This document shows positions 35,525 to 39,203 of a DNA stretch of 54,923 nt, piece by piece. Every line of letters starts with the position of its first letter. The stretch's first letter is position 1. Origin of the DNA: Nitrospirota bacterium (GTDB taxonomy: Bacteria; Nitrospirota; Nitrospiria; Nitrospirales; Nitrospiraceae); the NCBI GenBank assembly GCA_004296885.1, contig SCVN01000011.1, positions 1 to 54,923 of the forward strand. Direction: 5' to 3'. The position numbers were made by a program, and so were the translations under genes. The notes beneath the pieces are model-generated. The model was given only the letters and a program-made list of their open reading frames with translations, had not been told where the DNA came from and did not search any database.

Positions 35525-36625
35525 ATGAAACACTCCCGACTGCATGACGTACAGCTCGCACGCGGCGCGGTCATGGCCGAGACGGCCGGATGGGAGATGC
35601 CCGCCCATTACGGCCACCCGGCGGCCGAGCACCTGGCCGTGCGTCGCAGCGTGGGGCTCGCCGATCTGTCGCATCGCGGCAAGTTGCGGGTGACCGGAGA
35701 AGACCGGGTCAAGTGGCTGCAGAGCGTCATCAGCAACGATATCCTCCCGCTCACACCGGGCCACGGCCTCTATTCCAGCTTTCTCAACCACAAAGGCAAG
35801 ATGTTGACCTATTTCCGGGTCTACGCCCTCCCCGAGTCGCTTTTTCTGGAGGATGTCGGCGAGATCGGAGACGCCACGTTGCAAGTCCTGCGGAAATTTC
35901 TCCTCTACGGCACCAAGGCCAAGCTGGAACACTGCAGCGATACCTGGGGACAGCTGCTCGTGAGCGGCCCGCGCGCGGCCGAGCTCATCAACGCCGCCTT
36001 CGGCGCCGAAGTCACCGGGCTCACATCCCTGAATTTCACCGGTCAAGAAATCGGAGGACAGCAGGCCATCCTGGTTCGGACGGAAGAGACCGGCGAAACC
36101 GACATCGAGGTGTTGATTCCCGCTGACGGGCTCCCGGCCGCCTGGGAGCGGCTGGTGGAAACCGGCGCCTCGATGAGCCTCACCTTGTTCGGTACCCAGG
36201 CTCGCGAATCTCTACGCCTGGAGGCAGGTCTTGCGAGAATCGGCAAGGACCTCACCGAGGAGATCGTCCCGCCGGAGGCCAATCTGGAAGGGATTGCGTT
36301 CAGCCTGAGCAAGGGTTGTTATCCGGGCCAGGAGGTCGTGGCTCGGATGGACACCTACGGGAGCGTGCGCCGCCGCCTGGCCGGCCTTTCACTGAAGGGC
36401 TCCGCCGTCCCGCCCCATGGCGCCAAGATCTTCAGCGGCGACCGGGAGGTGGGCTGGGTCTCCAGCGCAGCGTCATCGCCTTCGCTGGGGCACCCCATCG
36501 CGCTGGGCTTCCCGCTGCGCGATTTCACCCAGCCTGGCACGGCCCTGACCATCGAGATCGACGGCCAGCGACACGAGGCGACAGTGCAGACACTTCCCTT
36601 CGTAAGGTCGCCGTCAGTCAGTTGA
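35525..36625 (+). CDS. ygfZ: YgfZ/GcvT-like folate-binding protein
   Basis: Folate-binding protein that supports repair or synthesis of certain iron-sulfur enzymes. The 366-residue protein has the GcvT-type fold (DLSHRGKLRVTGEDRVKWLQ near residue 47, with SNDI following) and the YgfZ hallmark KGCYPGQEVVARMDTYGSV near residue 260. ATG 35525 is used. This genome region contains several iron-sulfur enzymes (NadA, ThiC, BioB) that could depend on it; that link is inference. The stop lies within the left arm of the following hairpin. Confidence 0.9.
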   Translation: MKHSRLHDVQLARGAVMAETAGWEMPAHYGHPAAEHLAVRRSVGLADLSHRGKLRVTGEDRVKWLQSVISNDILPLTPGHGLYSSFLNHKGKMLTYFRVYALPESLFLEDVGEIGDATLQVLRKFLLYGTKAKLEHCSDTWGQLLVSGPRAAELINAAFGAEVTGLTSLNFTGQEIGGQQAILVRTEETGETDIEVLIPADGLPAAWERLVETGASMSLTLFGTQARESLRLEAGLARIGKDLTEEIVPPEANLEGIAFSLSKGCYPGQEVVARMDTYGSVRRRLAGLSLKGSAVPPHGAKIFSGDREVGWVSSAASSPSLGHPIALGFPLRDFTQPGTALTIEIDGQRHEATVQTLPFVRSPSVS

Positions 36626-36697
36626 GAGTTGAAAATGGTGAATTGAGAGTTAGCTGCTGAAGAGCTTTCAACTCCCAACTCTTCATTCTCAATTGAA
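36620..36697. repeat. Heptad-word hairpin after ygfZ
   Basis: Left words AGTTGAG, AGTTGAA, AATGGTG, AATTGAG, AGTTAG. The right arm in reverse complement reads AATTGAG, AATGAAG, AGTTGGG, AGTTGAA. It overlaps the ygfZ stop codon. The rest of the gap to 36857 (about 160 bp, lower GC) shows no clear promoter or gene. Confidence 0.6.
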
Positions 36698-36857
36698 TCT
36701 TATCGTTTCGGGTAGTGCTGTCAGCGCTTGCCATATCCAGAGAGCCGAAAATTTTCTTGCCAAGTGTACAGGAAGCACATAGGATTTCCCGTAACCCTAA
36801 GGCCAATTTGGTGGGGATAGGCTGACCGGTCTACTCAATAGCTATACCGCTAACTCA

Positions 36858-37358
36858 ATGGTGAAAACATCCAAACTACCTGAGGACAATGTGCGCGCGG
36901 TCGGTCGCGTGGTCGTAAACTTCCAATATCTCGAATTCACAATTGTCCAATTAATCTGGATCATGACGGGCCCGGATGAAAATATCGGGCAGCGCATTAC
37001 GGCCGGTGTTCCATTTACGAAACTTTGTGAGCTGTTATCGTCTATTTTCCACTACCACATCAAAGACTCGTCGGTCGTCGAAAAATTTGAACACCTCATG
37101 ACGCAAGCCCGTAACGTCAACACCGACCGAAATCGAATTGTTCATTCGTGGTGGTTTACAGATCTTGACGGCGGCGCTCCGTCACGGTTGAAACCTAAAG
37201 CGAAAGGGGCGCAATACGATTCCGAGAACATTGATGCAGATGCGGTGTCCACTTCAATTTCTAAATTGGCAAGCGACTTTGAGAAATTCATCGACGAACT
37301 CTACCAGGCCAACCTTATTCGCAGGAAACCTGGAATTTCATTGGACTCATTACGCTGA
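36858..37358 (+). CDS. Protein of unknown function in a cassette-like unit (possible HEPN fold)
   Basis: I do not recognise this 166-residue protein. It is mostly helical by composition, has no signal peptide or membrane helix, and contains DRNRIVHSWW (near residue 95), which fits the Rx4H pattern of HEPN ribonuclease or abortive-infection proteins; this is a weak hint only. Its base composition is clearly lower in GC than neighbouring genes. An attC site begins 5 bp after the stop, so the gene and site together look like one integron cassette. No clear ribosome binding site is seen before ATG 36858. Confidence 0.65.
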   Translation: MVKTSKLPEDNVRAVGRVVVNFQYLEFTIVQLIWIMTGPDENIGQRITAGVPFTKLCELLSSIFHYHIKDSSVVEKFEHLMTQARNVNTDRNRIVHSWWFTDLDGGAPSRLKPKAKGAQYDSENIDADAVSTSISKLASDFEKFIDELYQANLIRRKPGISLDSLR

Positions 37359-37362
37359 CGCG

Positions 37363-37468
37363 GCATAACAATTCGTTGGACGCGAGCGGCGGTAGCGCGT
37401 TTCTCAACTTGCTTGGTGCAGCGAAGGGTGCGTCGATTCGCGCCGCCGCGTCAACTCAGACGTTAGAC
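37363..37468 (+). other. Integron attC recombination site
   Basis: R'' box GCATAAC (37363-37369) and R' box GTTAGAC (37462-37468) flank a 106-bp palindromic region. The outer arms TTCGTTGGACGCG and CGCGTCAACTCAGA pair as L''/L' with an extra G on one side, followed by a further GCGGCG/CGCCGC stem with an unpaired A: these are the extrahelical bases typical of attC. R' matches consensus GTTRRRY exactly; R'' has one mismatch to RYYYAAC. No integrase gene or second complete attC is in the window. Confidence 0.8.
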
Positions 37469-37499
37469 GCCCCACATGAACCCGCGAATCGGGCAGCTT

Positions 37500-37534
37500 C
37501 AAGAGAAGTTGGCCCCGGGGCCGAGCAACGATCG
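37500..37534 (+). repeat. Direct repeat flanking the toxin-antitoxin pair, left copy
   Basis: 35 bp starting CAAGAGAAGTTGGCCCCG; identical in 30 of 35 positions to 38358-38392. The two copies bracket higBA. The rest of the 375-bp gap (37359-37733) holds the attC site and the higBA promoter region; no further gene is seen. Confidence 0.7.
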
Positions 37535-37699
37535 ACGAGGGAGGAGATTGTGTGGGAGGCCGCCCGGCCGGACTGAGGACCTCAGTGTTCCTCAATCCAG
37601 CGTTCAGCATGCATCGTTGATCGTTCTGGTCTACCGCTCCGGATTGCGCGCGGCGGCGTCCGCGCTGGCTAGCGTGGCGCGGTAAATAGATCGTCCTGC

Positions 37700-37728
37700 T
37701 TGCCGTTAATCATGCGCGGCGTTAATAT
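37700..37728 (+). promoter_or_regulatory. Candidate higBA promoter with repeated operator-like words
   Basis: TTGCCG (37700-37705), 17-bp spacer, TAATAT (37723-37728). GCCGTTAAT (37702-37710) and GGCGTTAAT (37718-37726) are near-direct repeats overlapping both promoter boxes and could bind the antitoxin. The start of transcription would be at about the GTG of higB (37734), implying an almost leaderless message. Confidence 0.45.
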
Positions 37729-37733
37729 AGACC

Positions 37734-38012
37734 GTGATTAAGACGTTCAAGTGCGCCGATACGGAAGCGCTCTGGAAGGGCCACCGGGTCAAACGTTTTC
37801 TGAATGTCGAATCTGTCGCGCAACGCAAGCTGCGACAGTTACAGATCGCGGGCCGCCTGGAAGACCTAAGGGTACCACCGGGCAACCGGCTGGAAGCGCT
37901 CAAAGGCAACCGCGCCGGGCAGCACAGCATCCGCGTGAACGACCAGTATCGCCTCTGCTTTCGCTGGACGGACTCGGGTGCCGAAGACGTTGAGATCGTG
38001 GACTACCACTGA
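37734..38012 (+). CDS. higB: HigB/RelE-type toxin
   Basis: Predicted ribosome-dependent mRNA endonuclease that slows growth when free of antitoxin. The 92-residue protein shows the family pattern: RLEDLRVPPGNRLEALKGNR followed by GQHSIRVNDQYRLCFRW and VEIVDYH, matching the HigB C-terminal catalytic strands. The GTG at 37734 is the start. The antitoxin gene follows 12 bp downstream, so the order is toxin first, which is typical of higBA. Confidence 0.93.
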   Translation: MIKTFKCADTEALWKGHRVKRFLNVESVAQRKLRQLQIAGRLEDLRVPPGNRLEALKGNRAGQHSIRVNDQYRLCFRWTDSGAEDVEIVDYH

Positions 38013-38024
38013 TGGAGAATGATT

Positions 38025-38342
38025 ATGCGTAAGCTAAAGCCTGTGACGCCTGGCGATCTCTTGCTCGAAGAGTTCCTGATCCCGATGGGTATCACTCAAT
38101 ATCGCCTCGCCAAAGAAATCGGGGTCTCCGCCCAACGGATCGGCGACATTGTGGCGAGCAAACGTGCCATTACTGCGGATACCGATTTGCGTCTGTGTCG
38201 GTTCTTCGGCCTTTCCAATGGCTACTGGCTGCGCGCGCAGGCCGCCTATGACACCGAGGTTGCCGAGAGCGCCCTCGCCAAAACGTTGGCGAAGATTAAG
38301 CCGTGGGCAGGGGCCAAAACTCATGCGGGTTCCGCCGCCTAA
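38025..38342 (+). CDS. higA: HigA-type antitoxin, XRE-family HTH
   Basis: Neutralises HigB and represses the pair. The 105-residue protein begins MRKLKPVTPGDLLLEEFLIP, then an XRE/Cro HTH (MGITQYRLAKEIGVSAQRIG, DIVASKRAITADTDLRLCRF), the usual HigA form. ATG 38025 is preferred to 38019 because GGAG (38014-38017) is eight bases upstream. The stop TAA lies in GCCTAAC, an R''-like word, as is common for genes in integron cassettes, but a complete second attC is not visible. Confidence 0.93.
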   Translation: MRKLKPVTPGDLLLEEFLIPMGITQYRLAKEIGVSAQRIGDIVASKRAITADTDLRLCRFFGLSNGYWLRAQAAYDTEVAESALAKTLAKIKPWAGAKTHAGSAA

Positions 38343-38357
38343 CTTCCGCTTCGACGC

Positions 38358-38392
38358 CAAGAGAAGTTAGCCCCGAGTCCGAGCGAAGATCG
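38358..38392 (+). repeat. Direct repeat flanking the toxin-antitoxin pair, right copy
   Basis: 35 bp starting CAAGAGAAGTTAGCCCCG, 30 of 35 identical to 37500-37534. TAACTTC just after the higA stop pairs with GAAGTTA here, giving a short hairpin. The 378-bp gap 38343-38720 otherwise holds dispersed repeat copy 3 and about 85 bp with nothing recognised. Confidence 0.7.
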
Positions 38393-38476
38393 GTCTTGAT
38401 CACGCGCAGGGGCACGGCAGGCGAAACATCCGGCTACCGTCCCCACCCTCTCCCTCTACACCGCCGCTAAACTCCG

Positions 38477-38716
38477 CAGGCTGATCAAAAAGGCCGCCTT
38501 CTCACCCGCCCACCCCAGCGCGCCAAGACGCGCCTTTTCCACGAGCGAGGCCGCAGGAAGTCCAGCGACTGAGGAGGTACATACCAAGCTTTGCTTGAAC
38601 CGCTCGCTTCAATCACCTGCGAGCGGATTGGTATTTTGCCTCCAGTAAACTTAGCTCGGTACGTCGCAAGGAAACGGACGCCCGAGAACGAAGTTCGGGG
38701 CCTTTTTTCAGCAGCC
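38477..38716. repeat. Dispersed intergenic repeat, copy 3 (about 240 bp)
   Basis: Left end CAGGCTGATCAAAAAGGCC and right end GGCCTTTTTTCAGCAGCC are imperfect inverted repeats. It shares CGCCAAGACG, GAGGCCGCAG, a 21-bp identical block (38571-38591) and CGAGAACGAAG with copy 1 in the same order. The right end lies 4 bp from the stop codon of the minus-strand gene at 38721, like copy 2 at 20898. Confidence 0.8.
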
Positions 38717-38720
38717 GTGG

Positions 38721-39203
38721 CTATTTTTCCGGATTGCGCGCGGCGGCAACGGCGGCAGCAAACGCAAACAGGCTCTTCCTGGCCTCGTCGTCGAGGGCCA
38801 GCAGCAGATGCGCCTCTTCCCCGTGCATGAGCCGGAGGCTCAGGAACGGTTCCTCCTGGCGCTTTTCCCGATTGTCCCAGACCGCGTCGATCACCTGGAC
38901 TTTGTCGAGATCGCGGGCCGAGACGACGTCGTACCGGAAGTAGGAATCGCCGATCACCATATCGTAGAGCACGTTCCCCGCCGTGAGCACCGCAAGGTTG
39001 AAACGTCCCTGCTCTTCATAGCCTTCCGGCAGATACTTGTTGATGTGGAGCAGCGCCACCTTTCGGTCGCCCAGCGCCGTCTGTATGTTTTTCTTGAGGG
39101 CGTCATAATCGAGTTGCAACGCCTTCTCATCCGGACCCGTCGCGTCCACCGCCGCCTGTTGCACCGCCTCAAAGACTCCTGCCGCCGTCGTCACACTACC
39201 CAT
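38721..39203 (-). CDS. Protein of unknown function, 160 residues
   Basis: Not recognised. The protein is acidic, without signal peptide or membrane helix, and looks alpha/beta: VALLHINKYLPEGYEEQGRF, then NVLYDMVIGDSYFRYDVVSA and FLSLRLMHGEEAHLLLALDD. A strong AAGGAGA before ATG 39203 and coding-like base usage support a real gene. It ends in an Ala-rich helix. Neighbours (repeat copy 3 and a PhoD-like gene upstream on the same strand) give no functional clue. Confidence 0.75.
   Translation of the reverse strand: MGSVTTAAGVFEAVQQAAVDATGPDEKALQLDYDALKKNIQTALGDRKVALLHINKYLPEGYEEQGRFNLAVLTAGNVLYDMVIGDSYFRYDVVSARDLDKVQVIDAVWDNREKRQEEPFLSLRLMHGEEAHLLLALDDEARKSLFAFAAAVAAARNPEK

Follow-up and report, generated by a model that had tools for sequence, protein, structure and literature searches.

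An attI, a single gene cassette and an attC without an integrase behind a ygfZ-like gene of a Nitrospirota bacterium

In a stretch of 54,923 nucleotides from a Nitrospirota bacterium (the window), a ygfZ-like gene was found to be followed by an attI, one gene cassette and an attC, in this order. The locus is very probably the integrase-less remnant of a sedentary chromosomal integron. The attC, the attI, their order and spacing, and the absence of IntI were observed at the locus itself, and intact intI genes beside the same attI, followed by attC arrays, as well as truncated intI genes elsewhere, were observed in relatives. The window itself retains no trace of intI, so it is from the relatives that we infer that this locus once had an integrase and lost it; entry of the cassette by IntI would fit the same picture. 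What is new is the attI family, together with its use for recognising dead integrons. The features of the locus are as follows.

35525–36625, + strand: GCV_T/YgfZ-like gene, the conserved left neighbour, with last codons differing from those of relatives
36755–36843, + strand: attI, matched by model R3, with homologous sites on the 3' side of full-length intI in genomes G080, G102 and G127
36757–36785, + strand: promoter-like TTGCCA-N17-TAGGAT within the attI, a candidate cassette promoter
36816–36841, + strand: attI core, GATAGGCTGACCGGTCTACTCAATAG, with the recombination point after G36841
36842–37462, + strand: integron gene cassette in its integrated form, 621 bp, delimited from the sequence and the attI and attC boundaries
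36858–37358, + strand: cassette ORF of 166 aa, probably HEPN-like, matching no Pfam family and giving nothing usable in NCBIfam
37363–37468, + strand: attC, matched by covariance models R1 and R2 and by a geometric scan
37363–37369, + strand: attC box R'', GCATAAC, read from the sequence
37379–37384, + strand: attC box L'', GACGCG, read from the sequence
37447–37452, + strand: attC box L', CGCGTC, read from the sequence
37462–37468, + strand: attC box R', GTTAGAC, read from the sequence
37463–37664, + strand: right flank of the integron, apparently old, with homology to the sequence that follows the G014 attC at the corresponding locus
38721–39203, − strand: conserved right neighbour gene, 160 aa, identified by its conservation in the family

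The attC site and the cassette gene

Two covariance models were used, from both of which the window site was left out. Model R1 was built from 29 sites of class 1 plasmids and of arrays in relatives, which had been chosen with our own scanner, and model R2 from six class 1 plasmid attCs only. The R1 structure showed strong covariation, with 108 double-change cells compared with 42 in shuffles, and slid versions scored far lower. The covariance search of the 55-kb window that an earlier note on this DNA had proposed yielded, with R1 and up to an E-value of 10, a single match at exactly 37363–37468 (44.1 bits, E 1.1e-8; 6.5e-7 at whole-genome scale), and R2 gave the same single match (28.5 bits, E 1.1e-6), all these E-values being rough. 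By the geometric scan the site reached 13.9, while 30 Markov copies of the window scored 12.0 at most. No Rfam match was found at 36000–39000.

The arms of the site run in the order R'', spacer AATTCGTT, G, L'', A, inner stem, L', spacer AACTCAGAC and R'. The extrahelical bases are G37378 and A37385, with six base pairs between them; the invariant AAC/GTT is present, and the extrahelical bases are on one arm. Exactly the same spacing, 8-1-6-1 / 6-9, is seen in aadA-type sites of class 1 and in the attC found in relatives, and the site agrees with the 29-site training alignment at each of its 12 invariant columns, read off by eye. The R'/R'' boxes, L boxes and extrahelical bases named in the earlier note were thus recovered. 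Its description of the site as a 106-bp palindrome was right for the arms but not for the central ∼50 nt, and folding of the full 106 nt was no better than that of shuffles (minimum free energy, z of 0.22 and −0.24). Because this central part is not palindromic, the fold energy of the whole attC is unremarkable, and the signal therefore sits in the arms. These results demonstrated that 37363–37468 is a genuine integron attC, which terminates one captured gene.

The cassette gene was confirmed to be AT-richer than its surroundings (47% GC, compared with 62.5% for the window), and its stop codon lies 4 bases from the attC, not 5 as first counted. With the cassette ends taken from the integron mechanism, the right junction reads G^TTAGAC and the left one G^CTATAC, where G^TT was expected. 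GTT was present at this junction in most other attI sites, whereas the window attI has GCT. The start of the cassette pairs with its own R'' at 5 of 7 positions, no better than does the downstream R'; the first cassettes of intact loci usually begin with a match to their own R'' at 6 or 7 of 7. GTT is essential for recombination in known integron systems. Since the left junction lacks it, the G^CT probably cripples or blocks excision of the cassette from the attI.

Besides Pfam and NCBIfam, PADLOC gave nothing usable for the cassette protein, Foldseek against PDB returned no significant match for its model, and no relatives were found in plasmids, phages or viral contigs. A homologue with 55% identity was found in a Chloracidobacterium MAG, and no attC lies near it. 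Among ten aligned sequences of the protein family an RNxxxH motif was recognised, in which R91 and N92 are invariant and H96 nearly so, and the resulting Rx4H (R91...H96) agrees with the Rx4-6H motif of HEPN proteins. The predicted structure (pLDDT 80) is all-helical, with RNxxxH near the end of a long helix (residues 71–99), as in HEPN proteins such as HepT toxins. HEPN toxins were among its structural matches with Z of about 7, a score that unrelated helical bundles equalled. Unlike known HEPN proteins, the protein matched no family model, and there is no antitoxin partner in the cassette. Judged from the predicted model, it is likely HEPN-like.

The attI family and the state of intI in relatives

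For the sequence lying between the ygfZ-like and cassette genes, matches were obtained in several genomes from the same family and order, two of them directly behind truncated intI genes. In G080, G102 and G127, the corresponding sites lie 85–111 bp 3' of a full-length IntI gene, in the same direction and with attC arrays downstream. Because they adjoin full-length IntI with attC downstream, these sites were assigned as the attI of the group's integrons, whose intI points towards the cassettes. The shared part of the family ends with GATAGGCTGACC(A/G)(A/G)TCTACTCAATAG^TTAGGC. A short pattern search for attI allowing one mismatch was unspecific, as the reversed control also matched many genomes; the attI calls rest instead on the extended core, the context and R3, a 91-bp sequence model made from 16 sites without that of the window. 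R3 matched the window attI with 55.3 bits and an E-value of 2.0e-14 over the whole genome (1.4e-15 in a second search), and across the host's family it found at least one attI in 43 of 175 genomes, model searches over several genomes having been run with stricter filters. The promoter-like element of the window has a counterpart, TTGCTA-N17/18-TAGGAT or something close to it, at the same distance in the majority of 22 attI sites, and is proposed as a candidate cassette promoter (Pc).

No IntI-type gene over the TIGR02249 cut-off was present in the host genome. The best host match to the IntI of G080 was a Xer-like recombinase (49% identity over about 76 residues, 63 bits), so that the genome-wide search suggested in the earlier note returned only general Xer-type recombinases in place of intI, but it did return more attC, namely a cluster on contig C16. 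There is no intI beside the window attI or anywhere in the window, as the earlier note had stated. The contig is gapless from the ygfZ-like gene into the attI, so intI is truly absent here, and the locus is therefore called a remnant and not an integron. The attC is not isolated, as had been thought: the attI lies 520 bp upstream of its start, and the genome also holds the C16 cluster and a partial attI on contig C3. Since the upstream attI is of the type proper to this group, the first of the two origins offered before, insertion of a cassette at a distance from its platform, becomes unnecessary; the second, a chromosomal-integron remnant, is the better one.

The state of intI was recorded at 39 attI loci of relatives and the host, which were chosen by search rather than at random and some of which stop at contig ends. 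The gene was full-length at 3 and partial at 14, some of these partial matches being weak or far from the attI, and it was missing at 22. An attC within 3.5 kb after the attI was found at all 3 loci with full intI, at 8 with partial intI and at 7 with none. The leftover pieces were mostly of the 3' end, from residue 177, 237, 244, 250, 281, 287 or 289 of IntI to residue 315, indicating that the loss of intI in relatives is graded, with erosion from the 5' side. As a separate observation, three copies of the C-terminal end of IntI, spaced about 1.83 kb, were seen in G018 (contig C48, L035, 9638–13476), with no recognisable attI or attC.

In the sequence of events that we propose, an IntI-family tyrosine recombinase would once have stood beside its attI in the same orientation and would have captured a circular cassette there via the folded bottom strand of the attC, leaving attI, cassette and attC behind the ygfZ-like gene. 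The intI gene would have been lost later, as in many relatives with erosion from the 5' side. The single HEPN-like cassette would then have stayed fixed, possibly transcribed from the attI promoter or by read-through from ygfZ.

The ygfZ locus and alternative explanations

The interval bounded by the ygfZ-like gene on one side and the gene at 38721–39203 on the other is conserved in place across the family but varies in content. It is empty or nearly so in G007, G013 and G022. In G003 it holds an attC of 52.2 bits and in G014 one of 28.4 bits behind a RelBE-like gene pair (named by eye), both in the same orientation as here. A weak attI remnant was detected in G003 by pairwise alignment (score 39, at most 32 in 2000 shuffles), which the R3 model does not report; no recognisable attI was found at the locus of G014, the R3 search included. 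The first 79 bp after the window attC aligned with the stretch following the attC of G014 with a score of 49, compared with at most 37 in 2000 shuffles, and the whole of 37463–37664 with a score of 118, compared with a top score of 60 in 500 shuffles. The insertion looks old, because an attC occupies the same locus in two other species and this 79-bp flank aligns with G014, and we read it as an old integron at one place. Repeated or independent insertions at a tolerant hotspot are possible, since what lies there in G001 and in G002, of which G002 is the closest genome by ygfZ identity, is an unrelated gene of outer-membrane type.

Several further observations were made around the locus. The last codons of the ygfZ-like gene (36601–36625) are unlike those of the compared relatives, and its native stop codon was seemingly replaced by the insertion. 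A HigBA-type toxin-antitoxin pair (37734–38342) is inserted beside the integron remnant; a 35-bp repeat at 37500–37534 and 38358–38392 flanks this block, and 37631–37664 is a further copy of the 3' end of the gene downstream, at 38727. In two species of the genus, the ygfZ locus is occupied by an unrelated minus-strand gene that by eye has an outer-membrane look (L051, 1991–3250; L053, 5430–6839).

Alternatively, attI, cassette and attC could have arrived at the ygfZ locus together, as one block derived from a different integron in this or some other genome, by duplication or by cassette-like excision of the attI with part of intI, so that the integrase was never here. Multiple attI copies per genome are common (five in G102, three each in G139 and G125, two in the host), most of them without intI, and the conserved stretch around the window attI stops near 36706, inside the intI–attI spacer, both of which would suit such a move. 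Nevertheless, three species have integron pieces at the ygfZ locus, with the right flank common to two of them, a series of 5' to 3' intI loss exists, and the stretch left of the attI (36602–36745) has no repeat copy elsewhere in the genome and is thus not a repeated element; we hold a block move to be unlikely. A small but appreciable chance is given to the more general idea that the attI is dispersed in the family, travelling or multiplying with the cassette with or without the 3' end of intI. If this is true, a genome would have several integrase-less docking sites usable in trans, a distributed integron served by one intact integrase elsewhere in the cell or by one arriving later.

It is quite doubtful that the cassette is still mobile, to be excised and reinserted via its attC by an integrase from another strain or a mobile element: although the attC arms, extrahelical bases and GTT are intact and relatives have full-length IntI, the host genome has no integrase and the left junction lacks the GTT normally required. 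An IntI acting in trans could have put the cassette into a chromosomal site other than an attI, an event known from mobile integrons at attG sites (PMC12901181), but this is very improbable here, as a full attI of the family's own type occupies exactly the required left junction. As for an unrelated or chance inverted repeat, the ordinary folding energy of the whole stretch and its position after a stop codon would be in keeping with one, but no terminator-like site was found, an attI lies upstream, and both attC models match there alone in the window; the terminator or REP reading was rejected on this last ground, and the probability left to any such repeat is negligible. The remnant of a sedentary chromosomal integron accordingly remains the preferred reading.

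Relation to known integrons and further sites in the host and relatives

Integrons, reversed intI, intI pseudogenes (PMC2426708) and CALINs are already known. An intI pointing towards the cassettes was reported for Spirochaetota, and an attI just downstream of intI for archaeal integrons too (PMC9668308). The intact loci of relatives share with the Spirochaetota-type integrons the order intI, attI, cassettes in one direction, and the attC geometry is canonical in both; no description of the attI sequence family was found in the literature covered, as judged from the texts rather than base by base, and the window locus differs in having no intI and one cassette left. Compared with class 1 aadA-type attC, the window site has the same 8-1-6-1 spacing of arms and extrahelical bases and an identical R''-side spacer, but it is 106 bp instead of 60 bp long, has other L boxes and follows an unrelated gene, and the window lacks the intI1 and attI1 of class 1 integrons.

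The host's family is probably Nitrospiraceae. The 16S gene of one member, G009, contains the targets of the Nitrospira probes Ntspa662 and Ntspa712; no exact Ntspa712 target was found in the host itself. In keeping with the earlier note's remark on how little integrons have been described here, IntegronFinder 2.0 listed only two CALINs, in Candidatus Nitrospira inopinata, for the phylum Nitrospira (PMC9024848). No literature on complete integrons or attI in this group was found in a search that covered few subscription journals. The window locus resembles a CALIN in having attC without intI, but a CALIN has at least two attC within a few kb, the default threshold, whereas the window has one and retains its attI. 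attI sites are poorly described outside class I, where IntegronFinder does not seek them (PMC9024848). The attI model reveals integron fossils from which intI is gone and in which one attC is left, and it allows a locus-by-locus test of whether integrase-less cassettes arose by decay in place or by insertion elsewhere. It also points to a candidate cassette promoter within the attI and to a HEPN-like captured cargo.

On host contig C16, attC sites were found at 268235–268312 and 268866–268931, with a weak one upstream and no intI at the cluster; these two good and one weak attC constitute a CALIN. A 271-aa cassette protein in this region (C16, 267402–268931; L143, 7403–8932) gave a weak match to the LmuA defence family (PADLOC, E 2e-6). 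On contig C3, the 3' half of an attI (113570–113608; L131, 1071–1109) lies close behind a gene and is followed by a 125-aa ORF; no attC was found there with filters off. In genomes of the host's order, 60-bp attCs very close to the class 1 aadA type were seen at L030 (6497–6556) and L080 (2677–2736), and another at L144 (2626–2685), known as a high-scoring 60-bp match. Such aadA-like sites, two by likeness and the third by score, may hint at exchange with mobile integrons.
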